Below, piece by piece: positions 1,264-38,218 of a stretch of 50,454 nt of DNA. Source of the DNA: Clostridiales bacterium (GTDB taxonomy: Bacteria > Bacillota > Clostridia > Christensenellales > Borkfalkiaceae); the NCBI GenBank assembly GCA_015055545.1, contig SVHY01000011.1, positions 1-50,454 of the forward strand, read 5' to 3'. Position 1 is the stretch's first letter, and each line of letters opens with the position of its first letter. Below the pieces are notes generated by a model that saw only the letters and a list, made by a program, of their open reading frames with translations, made no database searches and had not been told where the DNA came from. The position numbers and the translations under genes are program-made.

Positions 1264-1316
1264 AAAATGAATTGCAAGCCCCGCTTGCATGCATTGAAAT
1301 TTTCAATTCATGATAA
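1264..1316. repeat. Two-unit variable-stem hairpin array
   Basis: Two short palindromes lie side by side: GCAAGC-ccc-GCTTGC and GAAA-t-TTTC. The second is followed by AATTCAT, the linker seen in the arrays at 5115-5236 and 34303-34383. It lies between priA and the rpoZ terminator. No protein is encoded. The hairpins are directly visible; membership of one repeat family is inferred from the shared linker. Confidence 0.6.
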
Positions 1317-3146: not shown

Positions 3147-5093
3147 TTATTCTTGCAAAAGTTTGTTAAATTCTTCTTCGTCGATAATCCGAACGCCCAA
3201 CTTTTTCGCTTTTTCCAGCTTACTGCCCGCGTCGTCGCCCGCAAGCACGAGCGTCGTTTTTGCCGTTACCGACGACGAACATTCGCCGCCGCGCGCCTCA
3301 ATGAGCTTTTGCGCTTCACTTCTCTTATACCCCGAAAGCGTACCCGTTAAAACAACCACCTCGCCCGAGAATACGCCGTCCGTTTTTTCGTTCAACCAAA
3401 CGGGTACAACGCCCGCGTTTTGCAACGCCGCAAGCTCGTTTAAGTTGTCTTGGTTTTGGAAATATCCCACGATATCGTCCGCGGTAATCTCGCCGATATT
3501 TTCCATTTGCACCAGCTCGTCTTTCGTCGCTTTTGTCAATGCGTCCACGCTTCCGAATTTCGCCGCAAGGTCTTTCGCCGCAACCCTGCCTACCCCCTCC
3601 ACGCCGATTGCGAAGATAAACGCGTCCAACGTCGGGGTTTTGCTCTTTTCGATTGCCGTCAATAAATTGTCGATTTTCTTGTCTTTAAAACCGTCCAAAT
3701 CCGCAAAATCCTCTCTTTTCAAACGGTATAAATCGGAAAACTTCTTCACGCCGCGCTTTTCGAGCAAAACTTGCGCGGTACTCTCTGAAAATCCGTCTAT
3801 GTTCATGGCGTTCTTGCTCGCGTAATGATCGAGCGCGGCAACGATCCGCGGCGGACATTCTCTGTTCGGGCAAAACAGGTGTGCACCGTTTTCTGCCACC
3901 GCCGTGCCGCAAGCGGGACAAACGCAAGGTTTTTCTACTTCACGGCTCTTTTGCGTGTGCTCCGTCGCGCCCAAGATTTCGGGGATAACTTCGTTAGAAC
4001 GGCGGACGAGCACGCGCGAGCCGATTTTCACGTCTTTACGCAAAATGTCGCCGTAATTATTCAGCGTTGCCCTCGCAACCGTCGCCCCGCCCAGCTCAAC
4101 GGGCTGTAAATGCGCCAACGGAGTTAATTTGCCCGTTCTGCCCACCTGCCAAACGACGTCTTTTACGATCGTCGTTACTTCTTCCGCTTCAAACTTATAC
4201 GCCATCGCCCAACGCGGGAATTTATCCGTTGCGCCCATATCTTCGCGCACGGCAACGTCGTCCACCTTAATCACCGCGCCGTCCGTCAGTACGTCGATGA
4301 CTTTGCGTTCTTTTTCAATCTCCGCAACGGCGGCAAGCACTTCGTCCGCGCTTTTACAAACGCGGAAATACGGGAACACTTTAAAGCCCTGCGCGACGAG
4401 AAAATCGTGCGCTTGCACTTGCGAAAATTCTTCCCCGTCCGAGTTATAATTGATATCGTAGAAATAGATATCCGGCTTTCTCGATTTCGTGATTTTCGGA
4501 TCGAGATTACGAATCGCCCCCGCCGCGGCGTTGCGCGCGTTTTTGAGCGTTTCCGTCGCCGTAGCGTTGTATTTTTCCAAAACGGACAAGCGGATAACCG
4601 CTTCGCCGCGCACTTCCAAAGTGCCTTGATACGCGATTTTTAAAGGGAAGGACGGAATGGTTAAAACCTGCTCGGTTACGTCTTCACCCACGACGCCGTT
4701 GCCGCGCGTCGTCGCGCGCACGAACGCGCCGTTTTCGTACGTTAAACAAACGGTCAGCCCGTCGAATTTATATTCCACGGTGTACTGAACTTCCCGCCCT
4801 GCCGCTTTCTCCACGCGCGTCAAAAAAGCGCGGAGCTGTTCTTCGGACACCGATTTATCCAAACTGAACAGCCTTGCGATATGCGTATGTTTCTCAAAAC
4901 CTTTGATAGGTTCGCCGCCCACTCTGCGCGTGGGGCTGTCGGCAAACACTTCGCCGCTCTCTTCTTCCAAGCGACGGAGCTCGTCGTACAACGCGTCGTA
5001 TTCCTTATCCGACACAGTCGGCGCGTCCAAAACGTAATATTCGTGCGCCCATTTATTGAGAATATCCACAAGTTCTCTTTTTCTGTCGTGCAT
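3147..5093 (-). CDS. ligA: NAD-dependent DNA ligase
   Basis: LigA seals nicks in duplex DNA using NAD+. The 648-residue protein has all family domains. They are the Ia domain with HEYYVLDAPTVSDKEYD near the N-terminus, the adenylation domain with active-site lysine K109 in EYKFDG, an OB fold, a four-cysteine zinc finger (CPACG ... CPNRECPP, about 395-420), helix-hairpin-helix motifs (GVEGVGRVAAKDLA) and a C-terminal BRCT domain (about 575-648). The ribosome site AAGGGGG lies about 9 nt before the ATG. It sits downstream of pcrA, a common ligA neighbour, but a 152-bp hairpin array separates the two genes. Confidence 0.97.
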   Translation of the reverse strand: MHDRKRELVDILNKWAHEYYVLDAPTVSDKEYDALYDELRRLEEESGEVFADSPTRRVGGEPIKGFEKHTHIARLFSLDKSVSEEQLRAFLTRVEKAAGREVQYTVEYKFDGLTVCLTYENGAFVRATTRGNGVVGEDVTEQVLTIPSFPLKIAYQGTLEVRGEAVIRLSVLEKYNATATETLKNARNAAAGAIRNLDPKITKSRKPDIYFYDINYNSDGEEFSQVQAHDFLVAQGFKVFPYFRVCKSADEVLAAVAEIEKERKVIDVLTDGAVIKVDDVAVREDMGATDKFPRWAMAYKFEAEEVTTIVKDVVWQVGRTGKLTPLAHLQPVELGGATVARATLNNYGDILRKDVKIGSRVLVRRSNEVIPEILGATEHTQKSREVEKPCVCPACGTAVAENGAHLFCPNRECPPRIVAALDHYASKNAMNIDGFSESTAQVLLEKRGVKKFSDLYRLKREDFADLDGFKDKKIDNLLTAIEKSKTPTLDAFIFAIGVEGVGRVAAKDLAAKFGSVDALTKATKDELVQMENIGEITADDIVGYFQNQDNLNELAALQNAGVVPVWLNEKTDGVFSGEVVVLTGTLSGYKRSEAQKLIEARGGECSSSVTAKTTLVLAGDDAGSKLEKAKKLGVRIIDEEEFNKLLQE

Positions 5094-5114
5094 GTTTTTT
5101 ACCCCCTTGGGTTA

Positions 5115-5236
5115 ATGAAATGAAACGCGTTGCGTTTCGTGAAATGGCTAACGCCGTGAAATGAACGCTACGCGTTCGTGACTTGACGGCTTCGCCGTCA
5201 TTGTGGAAATATTTCCATAATGCACGCAAGGCATAG
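5115..5236. repeat. Variable-stem hairpin array, six units
   Basis: Six palindromes with tiny loops follow one another: GAAACGC-gtt-GCGTTTC, GGC-taac-GCC, GAACGC-tac-GCGTTC, GACGGC-ttc-GCCGTC, TGGAAA-ta-TTTCCA and GCAAGGC-ata-GCCTTGC. The linkers after the first three are GTGAAAT, GTGAAAT and GTGACTT, and the last unit is followed by AATTCATT. Stem sequences differ but linkers are near constant. The array fills the pcrA-ligA gap. No gene was seen in it. Confidence 0.75.
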
Positions 5237-5245
5237 CCTTGCAAT

Positions 5246-7582
5246 TCATTGAATAACCGTGAGCGGTGCTAATAACGCGGACAACTGCTTTATTCCTAAA
5301 CCTTCAAACGCTACGTCTAAAATCATATTCGAGCCCGTACCGCGAACGTTGATAACAATCCCCGTCCCAAATTTCGGGTGTTTGACCGATACGCCCACTT
5401 TGAACACGCTCAAATCCTTGCCCGCGCCCATTTTCGGCGTTGCCACTTTCCCTACGCCGCCGAACGTAAACCCCGCGCTCTTTTTGGGCGTGGACGGGCT
5501 TTGCCCTCTCGCACCGTACGTCGTGCCACCGTACGACGAACCGTACCCGCCGCCAAAGCTCGTTTTTCTACCGCCGTAACCGTCGTTGTATCCATACCTG
5601 CCCCCTACGTACGCGTCGTTGCCGTAGCTTTCGGGGTCGTCGTAATCGCCATAGCCCATAGGCGTACGGCGCGTTTCTTTGGGCAAGTCAAGCTCGCCCG
5701 CAAGTTCTTTCAAGAACCGCGAACGCATCGTCGGTTCACGCTTACCATAAAGATAACGGCTCTTGGAACGGGTAAAACAAATGCGTTCTTTTGCGCGCGT
5801 GATGGCAACGTACATAAGCCGCCGTTCTTCTTCCATATCGTCGTCGTTGCCTACGGCGCGCGATACGGGCAGGATATTTTCTTCCATGCCGCATACGAAC
5901 ACCACTTTAAATTCCAAACCTTTCACCGCGTGCACGGTGGCGAGCGTTACGTACTCGCTTTCGTCCATTTCGTCCGTATCCGACGAGAGCGTAACTTGGT
6001 TGAGATAATCGGTGAGCGTCGCGCCTTCGTTCAAGCGACAGTATTCGTCTACCGATTGAATAAATTCTTCGATATTCGCGCGCTTGTTGATACTCTCGTC
6101 CGATTCGTCGGCGTACGCCTCGCGCATACGCGTGTCTTCCACGATTTGCTTAACAAGCTCGTTCACGGGCAAGTCTTGGCTGGAAATAATCCACGATTTT
6201 ACAAGCGTTCTGAAATCCGCAAGCTTTTGTTTGGTCGCGCCCGTAAAGCCCATTTCGTCCAAATCGAGCAACGCCTCGTATACGGACATCTCGTTTTCAA
6301 ACGAATAATTTTGCAACGTTTCCACCGTTTTCGCGCCAATACCGCGTTTGGGGAAATTGATAATTCGCGTCGCCGCTTCGCTATCGAACGGGTTGTTCAC
6401 AAGCCGTAAATAGGCAAGCAGGTCCTTAATTTCCTTACGTTCAAAGAACTTAAAACCACCGAACACTTTATACGGAATAGCGTCGGACGTGAACTCTTGT
6501 TCAAACGAGCGCGTGAGCGCGTTCAAGCGCATAAGTACGGCAAAATCGGAATACTTATATCCGCGCGCCACCAAGCCCGCGATGGTATGCGCGATATACC
6601 GCGCCTCGCCGCTTTCTTCTTCCGCCTCGTACACCTTGGCACGTTCGCCCTCTTCCTGCTCCGTCCAAAGCGTTTTATCCTTACGGTTCGCGTTGTTGCG
6701 GATAACCGTATTCGCGAGCTTTAAAATATGCCCCGTCGAACGGTAGTTACGCTCTAATTTGAATACTTTCGCGCCCTTGAAATCCTTTTCAAAATGCAAA
6801 ATATTCTCAATCTTCGCGCCCCGCCAACCGTAAATGGACTGATCGTCGTCGCCCACGGCGAAAAGATTCCCGTGTACGCTTGCCAGCAGCTTGACGATCT
6901 CGTACTGTACGGCGTTGGTGTCTTGGAACTCGTCCACCAAAATATAACGGAATTTTCCGCCTAAATATTCGCGCGCGTCTTCGTTTTTACGCAAGAGTAA
7001 CCGCGTTTCGTTCAATAAATCATCGAAATCGAGCGCGTTATTTTCGCGCAAATGTTTTTGATAACGGGTGTATACTTTCGTAATCTCGTCAATTTCCCGC
7101 TCTCCCGCGTATTCTTCGGCGTAGCGGTTGGGATCGTAACCGAGCATTTTCGCGTTCGCGATATGGTATTTCACCGTTTTCAAGAGTTTTTCGTCGTCGA
7201 AATCACATTCTTGAAAGGATTTTTTGATAATGTTATTGCGTTCCGTTTCGCTGTAAATGGAAAAGTTGGCGTTAATCCCCACTTCGGTTGCATACGTGCG
7301 CAAAATCCGCACGCACATGCTGTGAATGGTACACACCCACGCGCGCGAAACGTCCACGATCTTTGAAAGCCGTTCTTTCATTTCGTTAGCGGCTTTGTTG
7401 GTGAACGTAATAGCAAGAATCGCCGAATCGGGCACGCGTTTTTCTTCCACGAGATAGGCAATCCGCGACGTTAAAACGCGGGTTTTTCCACTCCCCGCGC
7501 CCGCAAGCACCAAAACAGCCCCTTCCGTTTGCAGAACGGGCTTTATCTGTTCGTCATTGAGTTTTTCTAAAATATCGTTCAT
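5246..7582 (-). CDS. pcrA: ATP-dependent DNA helicase PcrA/UvrD
   Basis: This 778-residue superfamily 1A 3'-5' helicase acts in replication restart, excision repair and clearing of RNA polymerase. Visible motifs are the Q motif (LNDEQ), Walker A GAGSGKT near residue 30, DEFQDT near 220, GDDDQSIYGWRGA, the ERNYRST motif, TVHAVKGLEF, and motif VI MYVAITRAKERI near 600. A glycine/tyrosine-rich linker (about 660-710) leads to a C-terminal Tudor-like segment (GVSVKHPKFGTG) that in PcrA contacts RNA polymerase. No Shine-Dalgarno is seen before the ATG, and the predicted transcription start lies only 2 nt upstream, so the mRNA may be leaderless. Confidence 0.96.
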   Translation of the reverse strand: MNDILEKLNDEQIKPVLQTEGAVLVLAGAGSGKTRVLTSRIAYLVEEKRVPDSAILAITFTNKAANEMKERLSKIVDVSRAWVCTIHSMCVRILRTYATEVGINANFSIYSETERNNIIKKSFQECDFDDEKLLKTVKYHIANAKMLGYDPNRYAEEYAGEREIDEITKVYTRYQKHLRENNALDFDDLLNETRLLLRKNEDAREYLGGKFRYILVDEFQDTNAVQYEIVKLLASVHGNLFAVGDDDQSIYGWRGAKIENILHFEKDFKGAKVFKLERNYRSTGHILKLANTVIRNNANRKDKTLWTEQEEGERAKVYEAEEESGEARYIAHTIAGLVARGYKYSDFAVLMRLNALTRSFEQEFTSDAIPYKVFGGFKFFERKEIKDLLAYLRLVNNPFDSEAATRIINFPKRGIGAKTVETLQNYSFENEMSVYEALLDLDEMGFTGATKQKLADFRTLVKSWIISSQDLPVNELVKQIVEDTRMREAYADESDESINKRANIEEFIQSVDEYCRLNEGATLTDYLNQVTLSSDTDEMDESEYVTLATVHAVKGLEFKVVFVCGMEENILPVSRAVGNDDDMEEERRLMYVAITRAKERICFTRSKSRYLYGKREPTMRSRFLKELAGELDLPKETRRTPMGYGDYDDPESYGNDAYVGGRYGYNDGYGGRKTSFGGGYGSSYGGTTYGARGQSPSTPKKSAGFTFGGVGKVATPKMGAGKDLSVFKVGVSVKHPKFGTGIVINVRGTGSNMILDVAFEGLGIKQLSALLAPLTVIQ

Positions 7583-21345: not shown

Positions 21346-21694
21346 AACAAACTCCTAGTAAACCTGTTAAATCATTATAAGGGTCAAGGGACGAGCTGCC
21401 CGTTAAGCAAGGCATTGATAATGCCTTGTAGGGGCGAGATAAGCGAGCGACGATAGGTAGTCGCGAACGTGACCGAACGCAAAGTTCAGCTTTGCGCGAG
21501 AAGATGTCCCTTGTGGGTTGTAAGGGCAACGCCCTTACGTCCTTGCCCCCAAACAAGCAACCATAGGTTGCGCTCCACCGCGTAGCGGTTAATACGCTAT
21601 GGCGTATAGATGGAAAACTTACGCGTCGCTTTTCAATTCATTATTATATCATAAACCGCATAAAAAGTCTTTTTATTTTCCAAGGAAAATTTCG
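21346..21694. repeat. Structured non-coding region with nested and serial hairpins
   Basis: No gene is supported in this 349-bp gap. Serial palindromes are visible: AAGGCAT-tgat-ATGCCTT, GCAAAG-ttca-GCTTTGC, GTAAGGG-caac-GCCCTTAC, GCAACC-ata-GGTTGC, CCGC-gta-GCGG and TACGC-tatg-GCGTA. The first two sit inside an outer pair CAAGGGAC ... GTCCCTTG (about 21386-21513), so a larger folded element is possible. Linkers here do not match the AATTCAT type. Orientation and function are unknown. Confidence 0.6.
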
Positions 21695-22989: not shown

Positions 22990-23195
22990 TTATGATTTTC
23001 GCCTTGCGGCTCAAAACTATGAGCAAGATTATCCTGCACTATGATAGCAAACGAGTTTGCTAATTATGATAAATAAATCTTTAACTTTGCGTAGCAAATT
23101 ATAACTGCGTAAGCATCATAACCTGCCGTCAGGCAATCACAACAAATCCGTAAGGATTTATTTCGTTGCCTTAATCTTGCAGATTAAGGCTTTGC
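22990..23195. repeat. Variable-stem hairpin array, TCATAAC linker type
   Basis: Units read GCAAAC-ga-GTTTGC, TTTGC-gta-GCAAA, TGC-gtaa-GCA, CCTG-ccgt-CAGG, AAATCC-gtaa-GGATTT and CCTTAATC-ttgca-GATTAAGG, among weaker ones. Linkers include TTATAAC, TCATAAC and AATCACAAC. It fills the gap between the 72-codon gene and rhaD; no gene was seen. The last unit could also act as the rhaBAD transcript end. Confidence 0.7.
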
Positions 23196-32255: not shown

Positions 32256-32307
32256 AGTGTTATTTCTCCTTATACGGGGATCTCTTACAAACTACGTTTG
32301 CATTATG

Positions 32308-32400
32308 GTAATATCCCCAATCATTATGCATTTTGCATTAACGAAACGCAGCGCGTTTCATTTTTAGCAAGCGGCAAGCCGTAAACGGCTTGCCGCCCAC
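32308..32400. repeat. Variable-stem hairpins in the gap before the 225-residue lipoprotein gene
   Basis: CAAAC-tac-GTTTG, TGCA-tt-TTGCA, GAAACGC-agc-GCGTTTC and a longer stem GCGGCAAGCC ... GGCTTGCCGC are seen. The arms GAAACGC/GCGTTTC recur from the array at 5115-5236. The longest stem, 50 nt after the 528-residue gene, could double as its terminator although no clean T run follows. Confidence 0.55.
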
Positions 32401-34302: not shown

Positions 34303-34383
34303 GCACGCGATGCGTGCAATTCATGACCGTAGGTCAATTCATGAAATTCATTTCAATTCATGCAAACAACGTTTGCAATTCAC
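34303..34383. repeat. Variable-stem hairpin array with constant AATTCAT linker (cleanest example)
   Basis: Parsed unit by unit: GCACGC-gat-GCGTGC, AATTCAT, GACC-gta-GGTC, AATTCAT, GAAAT-tc-ATTTC, AATTCAT, GCAAAC-aac-GTTTGC, AATTCAC. Every stem begins with G and ends with C, every stem is different, and the 7-nt linker is identical three times. The last linker contains the stop codon of the GH20-like gene. Confidence 0.85.
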
Positions 34384-35999
34384 TTATCGCTTACCGCCCC
34401 GAACGTGATTGCTTTCAAATGATAGTTCATTTGCATATGCATTTTCGGGTCAATCGGCAATAATTCGTCGTCTAATTCGTCGATTTTTTCCGTTTTGCCG
34501 TCGCAGTACGCTTGCAAGCGGTTGCGACAGGTTAGCAATCTCGCCATCAAGCCGCCAAGCCGATAATCGTGTACTTCCCAGCCCTGCGGTTTGTTTTCCT
34601 TATGCCAAAGCGCGCAAAAGGCTTGGTGAAACGCTTTTACACGGCTTGCCGCTTTCGCATAATCGCCAAGCAAAGCTCGCAACGCCGTTTTGTCCTTATC
34701 TTTATACGCCCTGCGCGTGCGTATACCTAAATCCGCTTTGATAGCAAGCGCACTGCAAAGCTTGGCTAAAACGTCGAACAAATACGAAAACTCGCCCGCG
34801 GTTTTACCCTTTTTCCGCAACGTCCGCGCATAGCTTGCGTACGGGATTTTGGGAATCCTTTCGTACAAGTCGTCTTTAATGCCCATGAACGGGTCGCTGT
34901 AAAGTAATAATTTGCAGGGATTTTGTTGCAGCTCTTGCCCGTCCACGTAGATAAACGGTTTATCCATTTTATTCGGCAAATCCAAAGCGGTAAACGTATC
35001 GTAAGCCACGCCGAACGTTTCTTGAAAGCCGCGCTTTATGCTTTCTTCGTCGAAGTTGCCGTTTGCATACTGTCTGATTGCGTACAAGGACGGCAGAACG
35101 CTATAATAAGAACATTCTTTCCCGTCGTTGCCCCAAACGGCAATCAGCACGTTTTTCACTGCTAATTCGCGCACGCTTTGCATGGCGGGTTTCATCGTCT
35201 TTAACGTGAATTCGTTGAGCGGTGCAAAGCCGTTCCACGTCCACGCTCCACCCGCAAACCAAAGCGGTTTGCCTATGCGTTTATGCGCCGTTAAATTTTC
35301 GTCGTAGCCCTGCTTCGTCTTGTGGTAATAATCCCAAAAAACCAGTTCTACGTCGGGGATTTGGTTTACGATTTCTTCGGGCAAACGAAAATCGCCTTCG
35401 ATATGATACGCGCCGCCCGTTACAATTCGGAAGAACGTATCGCTCCACATATGCGCAGTAAACCCGTATTTCTTTGCAATTTCCAACACTTTATTTAAGT
35501 GCCGTAAAACAATGGCAAAACGGTCTTGTACGCCGAATTTGTCCATAAACCTACCGCGCCCGACCATGTGCGCTTCGTCCATGCCGATATTCACGATTCG
35601 CGACGTGAAGTTCTTTGCAAGGCTTGCGAACATTTTATCAATCAGTTCGTACGTTTTCGGCTCGTCTATCAGCAAAATACCTGCCGTATCGTGGATTTTT
35701 GCGTATTCGCTATGATTGAACAGCGTGGAAAGGTGTGCCAGCGTTTGAATACAGGGTATAAGCTCTACGCCGCGCGTTTTGGCGTACGCGTCGATTTCTT
35801 TAAGTTCTGCGCCCGTGTATCTGCCGCGCATATAACCAAAGTACGGTTCGCTCTCAATCTCGTACGTGTCTTCCGTGTACAGTTCCAGCGTATCATAGCC
35901 CATTTTTTGTAAACAGTCTATCATGCGTTTGACTTCGTCCACTTTCATTACGGCGTTTCTGGAACAATCCAGCATTACGCCAAAACGCTCATATTTCAA
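34380..35999 (-). CDS. GH20-like beta-N-acetylhexosaminidase family protein
   Basis: This cytosolic-type glycosidase (about 539 residues, no signal peptide) has a GH20-like TIM barrel. It opens with FGVMLDCSRNAVMKVDEVKRMIDCLQKMGYDTLELY and carries the Asp-Glu pair in VNIGMDEAH (D141-E142) expected for substrate-assisted cleavage of N-acetylhexosaminides. A helical C-terminal region of about 200 residues follows. A TTG at 35997-35999 has AAGGGAG 8 nt ahead and starts 14 nt after the preceding stop; the ATG at 36030-36032 would overlap that gene and has poor spacing to a ribosome site, but cannot be excluded. It probably processes imported glycan fragments. Confidence 0.85.
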   Translation of the reverse strand: MKYERFGVMLDCSRNAVMKVDEVKRMIDCLQKMGYDTLELYTEDTYEIESEPYFGYMRGRYTGAELKEIDAYAKTRGVELIPCIQTLAHLSTLFNHSEYAKIHDTAGILLIDEPKTYELIDKMFASLAKNFTSRIVNIGMDEAHMVGRGRFMDKFGVQDRFAIVLRHLNKVLEIAKKYGFTAHMWSDTFFRIVTGGAYHIEGDFRLPEEIVNQIPDVELVFWDYYHKTKQGYDENLTAHKRIGKPLWFAGGAWTWNGFAPLNEFTLKTMKPAMQSVRELAVKNVLIAVWGNDGKECSYYSVLPSLYAIRQYANGNFDEESIKRGFQETFGVAYDTFTALDLPNKMDKPFIYVDGQELQQNPCKLLLYSDPFMGIKDDLYERIPKIPYASYARTLRKKGKTAGEFSYLFDVLAKLCSALAIKADLGIRTRRAYKDKDKTALRALLGDYAKAASRVKAFHQAFCALWHKENKPQGWEVHDYRLGGLMARLLTCRNRLQAYCDGKTEKIDELDDELLPIDPKMHMQMNYHLKAITFGAVSDK

Positions 36000-36013
36000 A
36001 GCTATATCTCCCT

Positions 36014-38218
36014 TTAATCGATATTTCCCCATTCCTTATCCGCGCCAAGCAAAATATCTTGCTTGTCGTCTTGGTATTCTTCCGTCACGATATCGTCGTT
36101 GCCGTCGTTGCCGTCGTCTTTTTCTTGCAAGAGTACCGAACAGCCTTTTATCATAATCGGTCTGCCGTTCTTGCTCGCTTTAAAACCGCTCATATCCCAA
36201 ACGCCCGTATCAAACGTCGCCGCCGTTTCTTGCACCGAGCGTACGTTGGTTGCCAGCGCGCCCGCTTCTAAATTGAACAAATCGCGCCACTCGTACGCCG
36301 TTTTCGTATCGCCCAGCCACCAGTTGCCGTTAAAACCAAGCGTATCCACACCCAAATCGTCTATCTTCGTGTGGAAAGATTTCATACCCAGTACGAGATT
36401 GTTCGCAAACGTACCCAGCGCGTCCGAACCCGTGCCGCACATGGCGTACCGCGTTGCTTGCGACGTGTCCGCTACGTGCAATACGCAGTTTTTCACCGTT
36501 ACTTGCCCAACCGCCCAAGAAACCATCATGCCCGTCGAGCCTTGTGAGGCTTTGCCCAAGCCTTTGGCGAGTTCGTAATACACGTTTTCCAGCGTACAGT
36601 TTTCGCCTTTGCATATAAGCGAATAGCTTCCTGCTTTATAAAACCGCGGTTCGGGCGTCCATGCGTTGAGCGGGTCTTTCCGCAACGCGCCGTCTATGAT
36701 TTTTCCGTCCAACGTATACACCCTGTCTATGCCGTATTCGGAAAGCTCTAAACCCATATAATTATGGGGGTCTTGCATGGTGATATTTTCAAAGGAAATG
36801 TTTTTCAGTGTACCATTAAACACCCCGAAAATACCCGTATAGTTAGAAACGTAATTATCCGCTTTACTCACCGAAACCCACGCGCCGTAGAATATTTCCG
36901 CGTTCTTCACCGAATACCCGTTCCCGTCTATCGTGCCCGTGAACGGGAGATTGAACGTTCCTTTCGCCGTGTGCTTGTCGTTGAACTTGGCAAACTCTTC
37001 GTCCGTAAGCCCCGTTCCCGCTTTACCAAATTTGGTTCTATCCTCCATTTCGTAGCCGTTTTCCGTTGCTTTTAAGCGGTATTTCCATTGAATACCCGCC
37101 GTCATGTCCGTAGCAACCGCGCTGCCCGTATACGACGAAATGGGCATAATCACGTCGCCGTCGTAATCGATATCCCCAACGAGCATATAATTACCCGACA
37201 AAAGCGACGTATCGTTGTACGTAGACAGCGAAAGCGTGTCCATATCCGCTATCGTCGCAATCGGCGTAGTCACTTCCAAAGGAATAGCTACCGTTTCGCC
37301 CGTTGCTTGAATTTTCGCTTGCAACGTCGTTTCTCCCACCGTCAAAGCCTGCAACGTAACCGTTCCGTCGTCTGCAACGCTTGCTTGCGCCAACGTATCG
37401 TTTCCAACCGTCACGCTGAATTGCGATTTATCCAAATCCGTCTTTTCACCGTTCACGGCATTTACCCGTTTTACGCGTATATCAATGGCTGTATACAAAT
37501 CGTTTACACTTCCGCTCACCGTCTTATCGTCGGCAAGCTTTACCCGCGCTTGACTGAACGCGTAATACGTCGGCTCTACCACTACGCCCGTCCATTCTGC
37601 TTGATAGCTCTTGCCGCCGTAGCTGCAATTTGCTTTTACCGTCGCGCTGTCCGTTACGGTTTTGGGTGTTACCAAACCCGTTTGCGTAATCTCTAACGTT
37701 TCCGCGTCGCCTACGCTCCAAACAACGTCCGTGGGTTCTGCAACCGTCACGCCTCCTTCTAAAATAAACGCATGGGCTTGAATGGGCACGCCTACGTACA
37801 GCTTTTGCGAAGAAAAGCGTATCGCCAAGCCGTCCGTAACAGCGTCCGTTTGCACCTTGACGAACACCGACGTTTCCAGCCCGTCCGCCATCACGTTGAC
37901 GTACGTTTCACCTGCCGAAACCGCCGTAATCAAGCCGTTTGCCACGTTGGCAACCGATTCTAATTCCGACGTATATTCAATTTCAGTTATCGTTTGTTCT
38001 TCGTCGTTGCCGTCGTATTTCTTAACGTCTAATTGCAACGTTTCGCCCACTTTGAGCGTCACGCTGTACGTGTTCAACGTCAAATATCCACTTTTCGACG
38101 TTTCCGTTTGTTCGTTTTGCGTATCGTTCGTTTCCGACTCGTCGTTTTTACAAGCCGCAAACGCCGTCGCCGAAAACAGCATGAACGTAGAAAGAAAAAC
38201 CGCTATACCTTTTTTCAT
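36014..38218 (-). CDS. Ig-like (BIG2) lipoprotein with a beta-helix-like region, 734 residues
   Basis: The lipoprotein signal ends in AFAAC (C23), followed by an acidic Thr/Glu linker. Bacterial Ig-like group 2 units follow: YLTLNTYSVTLKVGETLQLDV ... GLITAVSAGETYVNVMADG at about 45-125, and at least one more to about 330. Residues 340-700 include GTIDGNGYSVKNAEIF, GIFGVFNGTLKNISFENITM and TLENVYYELAKG, the pattern of beta-helix or GLUG-type repeats. It ends in a charged acidic tail. It is likely a surface adhesin or glycan-binding scaffold; binding target unknown. It lies between a shorter BIG2 lipoprotein gene and the GH20-like gene. Confidence 0.85.
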   Translation of the reverse strand: MKKGIAVFLSTFMLFSATAFAACKNDESETNDTQNEQTETSKSGYLTLNTYSVTLKVGETLQLDVKKYDGNDEEQTITEIEYTSELESVANVANGLITAVSAGETYVNVMADGLETSVFVKVQTDAVTDGLAIRFSSQKLYVGVPIQAHAFILEGGVTVAEPTDVVWSVGDAETLEITQTGLVTPKTVTDSATVKANCSYGGKSYQAEWTGVVVEPTYYAFSQARVKLADDKTVSGSVNDLYTAIDIRVKRVNAVNGEKTDLDKSQFSVTVGNDTLAQASVADDGTVTLQALTVGETTLQAKIQATGETVAIPLEVTTPIATIADMDTLSLSTYNDTSLLSGNYMLVGDIDYDGDVIMPISSYTGSAVATDMTAGIQWKYRLKATENGYEMEDRTKFGKAGTGLTDEEFAKFNDKHTAKGTFNLPFTGTIDGNGYSVKNAEIFYGAWVSVSKADNYVSNYTGIFGVFNGTLKNISFENITMQDPHNYMGLELSEYGIDRVYTLDGKIIDGALRKDPLNAWTPEPRFYKAGSYSLICKGENCTLENVYYELAKGLGKASQGSTGMMVSWAVGQVTVKNCVLHVADTSQATRYAMCGTGSDALGTFANNLVLGMKSFHTKIDDLGVDTLGFNGNWWLGDTKTAYEWRDLFNLEAGALATNVRSVQETAATFDTGVWDMSGFKASKNGRPIMIKGCSVLLQEKDDGNDGNDDIVTEEYQDDKQDILLGADKEWGNID

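Follow-up and report, generated by a model that had tools for sequence, protein, structure and literature searches.

The stretch of Clostridiales DNA that we analysed (50,454 nt; hereafter the window) carries at positions 34303–34383 an array of four short palindromes alternating with a repeated 7-mer. On the plus strand, the first half reads GCACGC-gat-GCGTGC, AATTCAT, GACC-gta-GGTC, AATTCAT and the second half GAAAT-tc-ATTTC, AATTCAT, GCAAAC-aac-GTTTGC, AATTCAC; three AATTCAT linkers lie between the hairpins and AATTCAC closes the array. This reading agrees with the first-pass annotation, which described a linker–hairpin array with every stem starting with G and ending with C. Only one of the four loops (gta) has the GNA form. 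The outer linker contains the TGA stop codon (34380–34382) of a GH20-like open reading frame (34380–36032, minus strand), and no partner arm is recognisable for this array. The C-terminal part of the GH20-like glycoside hydrolase was matched four times in the window's genome and in 29 of 41 genomes of the genus. In total, the window holds five members of the repeat, comprising one arm, one partly deleted element and three remnants or diverged copies:

34303–34383, minus strand: alpha arm, outer-to-inner order read on the minus strand (outer linker 34377–34383, H1 34362–34376, linker 34355–34361, H2 34343–34354, linker 34336–34342, H3 34325–34335, linker 34318–34324, H4 34303–34317)
5115–5249, plus strand: partly deleted element with a complete beta arm (linkers at 5115, 5139, 5156 and 5178; hairpins GAAACGC, GGC, GAACGC and GACGGC), a centre at about 5200–5221, one alpha hairpin (5226–5242) and an outer linker (5243–5249)
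1267–1311, minus strand: remnant of two hairpins flanked by ATGAATT (1267–1273) and AATTCAT (1305–1311)
23045–23185, minus strand: diverged element whose linkers belong to the GTGATAT/GTTATAT branch, containing a GCAAAC/GTTTGC stem
32288–32359, minus strand: decayed remnant with a GAAACGC/GCGTTTC hairpin and a centre-like stretch, judged by eye

The partly deleted element lies between a uvrD/pcrA-like gene (5246–7582, minus strand) and a ligA-like gene (3147–5093, minus strand), and the uvrD stop codon TGA (5246–5248) falls within its outer linker. It and the remnant at 1267–1311 are the related arrays that had been reported elsewhere in the window. The recurrence of stems between arrays is likewise real, with positions to be corrected: GCAAAC/GTTTGC lies at 23047–23060 rather than at 22990, and GAAACGC/GCGTTTC at 32343–32359 rather than at 32308. 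Below, G000 denotes the window's genome, other G-numbers (G022, G031, G049 and so on) other genomes, and L-numbers sampled stretches. By eye, the diverged copy at 23045–23185 resembles G049 copies in L216.

Two collections of arms underlie the following description. The first set, located mainly through linker pattern, DNA similarity and position, comprises 399 arms in 172 of 197 loci, while the replicate covers 40 stretches (484 kb) from 24 genomes of other orders of the class, picked for matches to the Rfam model Gut-1, and yielded 102 arms versus one after shuffling. In the element, an AT-rich centre such as GTTGTGGAAATATTACAATAAC is flanked by two inverted arms, and each arm contains four short hairpins and four 7-mer linkers of the RTGAAWT type. 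We call the arms alpha and beta, names coined in this analysis, with arm classes assigned by simple stem rules. From the outside in, alpha stems are GCAAGC-like (H1), GAAAT/GAAAAAC (H2), GCGCC/GCCC (H3) and GCAAAGC/GCAACGC/GCACGCC (H4), with H2 and H3 swapped in some copies; beta stems are GAAAAGC/GAATTGC, GGC/GGGC, GAACGC/GACGGC and GACGGC/GCGTTGC/GCATTTC. Each slot has few alternative stems, and the loops are more variable. The stems, earlier taken to be unrelated and free, as if hairpins were freely made, follow a regular order of hairpin types, with each slot limited to a short list.

A full copy measures about 190–280 bp from outer linker to outer linker, which is too short for a transposase. 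G000 and G022 together gave 31 full elements; 27 consist of one alpha and one beta arm, and four have an unclassified or like arm. Opposed arms (left then right, gap below 160 nt) account for 117 of 243 neighbouring arm pairs and for 36 of 64 in the replicate; at the two ends, linkers and layout are inverted, but stem sequences usually differ. Linker types vary by branch (ATGAATT, GTGAATT, GTGAAAT, GTGATAT, GTTATAT and others), and the tally, made by a parser that seeks the RTKAWWT type, is led by ATGAATT (626), GTGAATT (314), GTGAAAT (189) and GTGATAT (102). One cassette, TTCGCTAACGCTCA, forms an imperfect hairpin whose opposite strand could, by eye, pair tandem G·A below a GNNA loop. In a trial MAFFT alignment of 23 of the 50 eligible arms, gaps fell across hairpins. 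We also considered and rejected pairing between linkers, in which the element would form one long rod and pairs of hairpins would emerge from four-way junctions; RNA folding predicts this in part, and covariation does not support it. Many G022 elements, judged by eye, carry GTGAATT in one arm and GTGAAAT in the other, resulting in a mismatch in each linker pair.

The linkers are more frequent genome-wide than chance would give. Across the whole of G000, units of linker, hairpin-length gap and linker occur 74 times (38 forward, 36 reverse), 31 of them on the 145-kb contig C19, versus 0 and 0 for a reversed-pattern control. Arrays of at least three hairpins number 34 in a 420-kb G000 sample, which includes the window and whose stretches were picked partly for having matches, versus none in one shuffle, and 21 versus one in 382 kb of the relative G022; linker–hairpin chains number 32 and 48 in these two samples, versus 0 and 0 after shuffling. 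Only three of the 399 arms lie inside a predicted gene, as called by a simple codon-usage script rather than a curated annotation. An apparent enrichment between co-directional genes (14 of 23 and 19 of 25 in two genomes) was discarded, being expected from gap length: tandem gaps hold 208 of 287 arms (72%) and 68% of intergenic bases.

Two further repeats were seen alongside these arrays. A second array family, present in the window at 21557–21607 and also at L017 2198, L020 13536, L030 599–740 and other places, has three hairpins (GCAACC-like, ACCGC(C) and TACGC-like) with a flank such as AGCCCCCAAGTAA and lacks conserved 7-mer linkers; by eye, it makes up 14 of the 34 G000 arrays of at least three hairpins. 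A perfect 24-bp palindrome, AAAACTTAACCATGGTTAAGTTTT, adjoins arrays at L211 (G031) 5978–6001 and at further sites; with up to two mismatches allowed it was counted 104 times in G031, once in G000 and not at all in G022, G049 and G052.

Part of this architecture is already catalogued as an RNA. Gut-1 was proposed as an RNA candidate in 2010 and is filed in Rfam as an sRNA (RF01706); the source paper (Weinberg et al, 2010; PMC2864571) rated it 'Y' as RNA, gave its range as 'Human gut only' and counted it with the noncoding RNAs known from environmental sequences alone. In cmscan searches, beta arms match Gut-1, while one alpha arm scores 27.6 bits, under the cut-off of 50; in the alignments, the 77-position model corresponds to one arm, with three hairpins between (G)UGAAAU linkers. 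G000 copies outside the window reach the cut-off (65.3, 61.8 and 50.3 bits), whereas the window matches at 5091–5167 (31.8 bits, E 0.022) and 23074–23168 (26.8 bits, E 0.4) stay under this gathering score and 34303–34383 gives no match up to E 5. Gut-1 was matched in 26 of 61 relatives (17 above the cut-off) and, across the class, in 49 of 291 genomes (33 above), spanning many families and often with many matches per genome; among 14 control genomes, E. coli alone was matched, under the cut-off, in both searches. A pattern search gave at least 119 matches in named GTDB genomes; among the 80 listed, 70 have Clostridia-type or Bacillota names, two are 'uncultured bacterium' and eight are others (Prevotella, a planctomycete, Paenibacillus), some possibly chance matches. 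Gut-1 probably represents a single arm of a mobile DNA repeat that is widespread in gut Clostridia, in which case annotation pipelines would mislabel it. The Rfam entry presents one arm as an sRNA gene, whereas the element described here has two inverted arms and a centre, many copies in many families, and a DNA-like constraint. Within open-licence PMC text, no paper on the two-armed linker–hairpin architecture was found, and Gut-1 is named only in PMC2864571.

Several observations concern the setting of these matches. A number (in G031, G052, G166, G190 and others) lie less than 400 bases from a contig start, and the repeats may break assemblies. Arrays also occur on IMG/VR contigs classed as viral, such as L056 and L070 (17 stretches found by pattern, of which at least one, L058, is a simple repeat). 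At L216 12639–13236, a G049 copy is flanked by a 5S rRNA gene on one side and a tRNA gene on the other.

Near-identical copies at unrelated sites, together with sites that are empty in relatives, indicate from sequence comparison that the element is mobile. Copies 92–97% identical with unrelated flanks occur within single genomes (L091, L086/L112, L090/L131, L051, L216/L218); their ends are sharp, no consistent target-site duplication was seen, and in some species extra terminator-like outer hairpins move along with the element. At the uvrD–ligA junction, read in 30 of 41 matched genomes, the element is present in G000 and G022, in opposite orientations, and G005 has one decayed arm; judged by eye, G035 carries hairpins of a different family, a few genomes single hairpins and the rest no array. 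At a second site common to G000 and G022, the orientation is the same and the stems differ. At four other sites, an element or arm is present in G000 and absent from G022 (L016 9227, L021 2000, L021 4430, L033 6774). In one comparison of the two genomes, a 196-bp element of G000 separates a stop codon from a ribosome-binding site, and the corresponding G022 sequence is GTCAATTAAGGAGG. Most presence/absence sites are compatible with either gain or loss. Two arrangements deserve separate mention: at L021 2000–4503, a beta arm and an alpha arm flank a 2.3-kb gene pair (Gfo/Idh oxidoreductase and AraC regulator), AAATATT occurs in both centre halves and the matching outer flanks in G022 are about 140 nt apart; at L121 650–4050, four similar arrays lie within 3.2 kb, and the second block of two has direct, not inverted, GTGAAGT linkers.

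A composite or autonomous form of the element was also sought and rejected. Fourteen opposed arm pairs 160–6000 nt apart hold 12 predicted genes. Ten of these, excluding two of L121, were run against Pfam and are ordinary or without assignment (GAPDH, a serpin, an aminotransferase, Gfo/Idh, an AraC regulator, a MazG-like protein, DUF4416, DUF898, a hexapeptide protein and one unmatched); neither a mobilising gene nor a parent transposase was found among these ten. Opposed pairs at least 160 nt apart are not commoner than other orders (LR 15, LL 26, RL 50, RR 17). MITEs are non-autonomous elements with inverted ends. The Gut-1 element resembles them in its inverted arms, absence of genes, dispersal and presence or absence at orthologous sites, but differs in that its arms are usually unlike in stem sequence; no consistent target duplication was seen, and none of the ten genes run against Pfam is a parent transposase.

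We then weighed whether the hairpins are maintained as DNA or as RNA. A structured non-coding RNA, as in Rfam, would imply transcription of the arrays and selection acting on their RNA hairpins; we regard this as unlikely, even though model matches exceed the gathering score, the 2010 paper rated Gut-1 'Y' as RNA (PMC2864571) and many copies lie between co-directional genes, where they would be transcribed. The elements also fold strongly as RNA: single-strand folding beats shuffles both as RNA (z −5.4 to −7.6) and as DNA (z −5.4), as palindromes must. In the first set (1034 hairpins, 5541 pairs), mismatches comprise 40 G·T, 52 A·C and 91 others, bearing in mind that hairpin choice scored G·T and A·C alike. 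On the mRNA strand, where flanking genes are co-directional, the G·T:A·C ratio is 32:22 (9:8 in an initial two-genome count), compared with 47:8 in 173 terminator-like hairpins of the same loci (Fisher p 0.0027). The replicate gave 13:23, with 53 others, and 8:13 on the mRNA strand; the first-set ratio leans to G·T and that of the replicate the opposite way. There is no clear transcribed-strand G·U excess, while terminators in the same loci have one. The test is weaker than it looks, since mismatches in dead copies decay symmetrically whatever the selection on the source copy, and the 97–98% Watson–Crick figure arises partly by construction, as the parsing took palindromes only.

The loops are polar with respect to the arm. 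Read from outer to inner, first-set loops (n = 661) are T..C in 344 cases, G..A in 8 and other in 309; the replicate (n = 249) has 180, 2 and 67, a ratio that may be inflated because the Gut-1 model itself contains U..C loops, which affects the first set less. The closing pair is C·G in 568 of 661 and 227 of 249 hairpins, respectively. On the inner-to-outer strand, the polar loops have the form C(GNA)G or C(GNNA)G, which is followed less by inner hairpins (n = 101: T..C 32, G..A 1, other 68). Counted relative to the mRNA strand, the loops split 99:94 in the first set and 39:38 in the replicate; polarity tracks the arm and not transcription, which speaks against a structured RNA. Four-base loops on the inner-to-outer strand are GNYA in 72 and GNRA in 66 cases (37 and 26 in the replicate), showing no preference for the RNA GNRA tetraloop. 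An RNA gene is further disfavoured by the order of the arms along transcription, alpha-first versus beta-first being 12:11, and by the many copies per genome and element-free sites in relatives, which are unlike an sRNA gene. We favour the view that the mismatch, loop-polarity and N4-like loop-rule patterns fit folding DNA better than RNA.

Comparison of related copies, some pairs of which join different genomes, revealed how the parts change. In 35 non-overlapping pairs, change rates are 5.4% for linkers, 7.4% for stems and 26.6% for loops, and in 166 overlapping pairs 6.4%, 9.1% and 31.8%. Stem changes in the non-overlapping pairs include 34 that are Watson–Crick on both sides, four broken on both sides and 35 one-sided (4 G·T, 5 A·C, 26 other), the one-sided being as many as the paired; the overlapping pairs gave 208 paired Watson–Crick changes, 35 broken on both sides and 30 G·T, 47 A·C and 103 other one-sided changes. 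The first-pass proposal that linker and palindromy are conserved while stems vary therefore stands, partly by way of paired changes. Such counts could also reflect mutation bias alone, with template switching during replication making and repairing palindromes without any function. Paired and one-sided changes are equally frequent (34 versus 35; 208 versus 180), as is unexpected from independent single mutations, and template switching has been published for RNA hairpins (PMC8794818). However, it also inverts the loop (PMC8604942), and inverted loops are rare (344:8; 180:2); nor would it preserve the non-palindromic linkers, which are the least changed part, or slow stems relative to loops. 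Mutation bias as the whole explanation appears improbable, and template switching may contribute to the paired changes.

We give similarly little credence to terminators or mRNA 3′-end stabilisers, by which hairpin clusters directly after stop codons would end or protect transcripts. In the first set (197 loci), 162 arm edges face a gene 3′ end within 300 nt; in 19 of them the linker TGA serves as the stop codon, and 25 of the edges sit 0–5 nt beyond the stop; some species add terminator-like outer hairpins, and hairpin clusters are able to terminate (PMC8355165). This adjacency does not recur in other orders of the class (none of 23 at −4 and one of 23 at 0–15 nt), the share of arms in tandem gaps is near that of intergenic bases, the mismatch spectrum is symmetric and several copies interrupt tight co-directional gene pairs.

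The first-pass annotation had suggested a REP-type tyrosine transposase or a reverse transcriptase elsewhere in the genome, but neither PF01797 (Y1) nor PF00078 (reverse transcriptase, RVT_1) is matched at E ≤ 0.001 in G000 (83% complete). The same holds, at the same threshold, for two copy-rich relatives from other families, G049 (94% complete, 52 Gut-1 matches) and G055 (100% complete, 13 Gut-1 matches). Among 61 relatives, Y1 was matched in 18, including G022 and G031 and excluding G052, and RVT_1 in 12, including one match each in G031 and G052 and none in G022. Mobilisation as a REP-like element through a Y1 (RAYT) transposase, or synthesis of the hairpins by a reverse transcriptase, would account for palindromy, extragenic position and mobility as for REPs and could draw on these matches in relatives, but is highly improbable given that G000, G049 and G055 gave no match to either family, that G052 gave none to Y1 and G022 none to RVT_1 although copies are present, and that the linkers are neither GTAG nor CGTC. 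Similarity to REP, BIME and REPIN sequences extends to multicopy short palindromes outside genes, to the proximity of some of them to stop codons and to stem sub-families (PMC3733652, PMC12306157, PMC3116915). The contrast first drawn with REP/BIME elements, said to keep their stems, was overstated, as REP sub-families have alternative complementary stem residues (PMC3733652). The Gut-1 element differs in its 7-mer tag, repeated within each arm rather than standing as GTAG/CGTC at the palindrome end, in having up to eight hairpins per unit and in its presence also where no Y1 match was obtained. G·T pairs are frequent in the stems of REPs (PMC3733652), unlike those of the Gut-1 element.

Returning to maintenance as DNA, the reading towards which we lean, with modest confidence, is that each array belongs to a non-coding DNA element with two arms, which is dispersed and spreads within the genomes of gut Clostridia, with stems presumably retained for their folding as DNA. 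Extruding DNA hairpins are proposed mainly because the loop rule of phage N4 recurs in these arrays, with a strand polarity that is set by the arm and does not depend on transcription. In N4 promoters, extrusion of short hairpins needs a C·G closing pair and a loop with 5′ G and 3′ A, and occurs at a superhelical density of −0.035 with Mg2+ and in vivo (PMC4496689). By analogy, when the DNA is negatively supercoiled or single-stranded, hairpins with C(GNA)G or C(GNNA)G loops would extrude from each arm on its inner-to-outer strand, leaving the linkers exposed between them. A putative protein (a recombinase, a transposase or a host DNA-binding factor) would read linkers and hairpins together, and this recognition would let the element move and would preserve both linkers and palindromes. 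The N4 early promoters share the short stem, the three-base loop, the closing pair, the loop bases and a partly free stem sequence (PMC4496689), but are single viral promoters, whereas the arrays here are chromosomal. Integron attC sites offer a parallel in that folded DNA hairpins are recognised by a protein (PMC11641012), which in the present case is only postulated.

A more specific version, which we offer tentatively and consider somewhat doubtful, is a class-wide mobile family whose ends are strand-specific, self-extruding DNA mini-hairpins and whose 7-mer linkers are read by a recombination protein that is neither Y1 nor an integron integrase; stems would be loose as mainly DNA shape and loop code are read. 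If this were true, Rfam would have taken a DNA element for an RNA in its Gut-1 entry. Mismatch strand symmetry, loop polarity by arm and paired changes in related copies could serve to separate DNA palindromes from other repeated 'RNA' families. Should the extrusion model prove correct, supercoil-driven DNA hairpins would occur naturally in arrays at numerous chromosomal positions, and their reader protein would represent a new hairpin-recognising recombination or chromosome-binding system.
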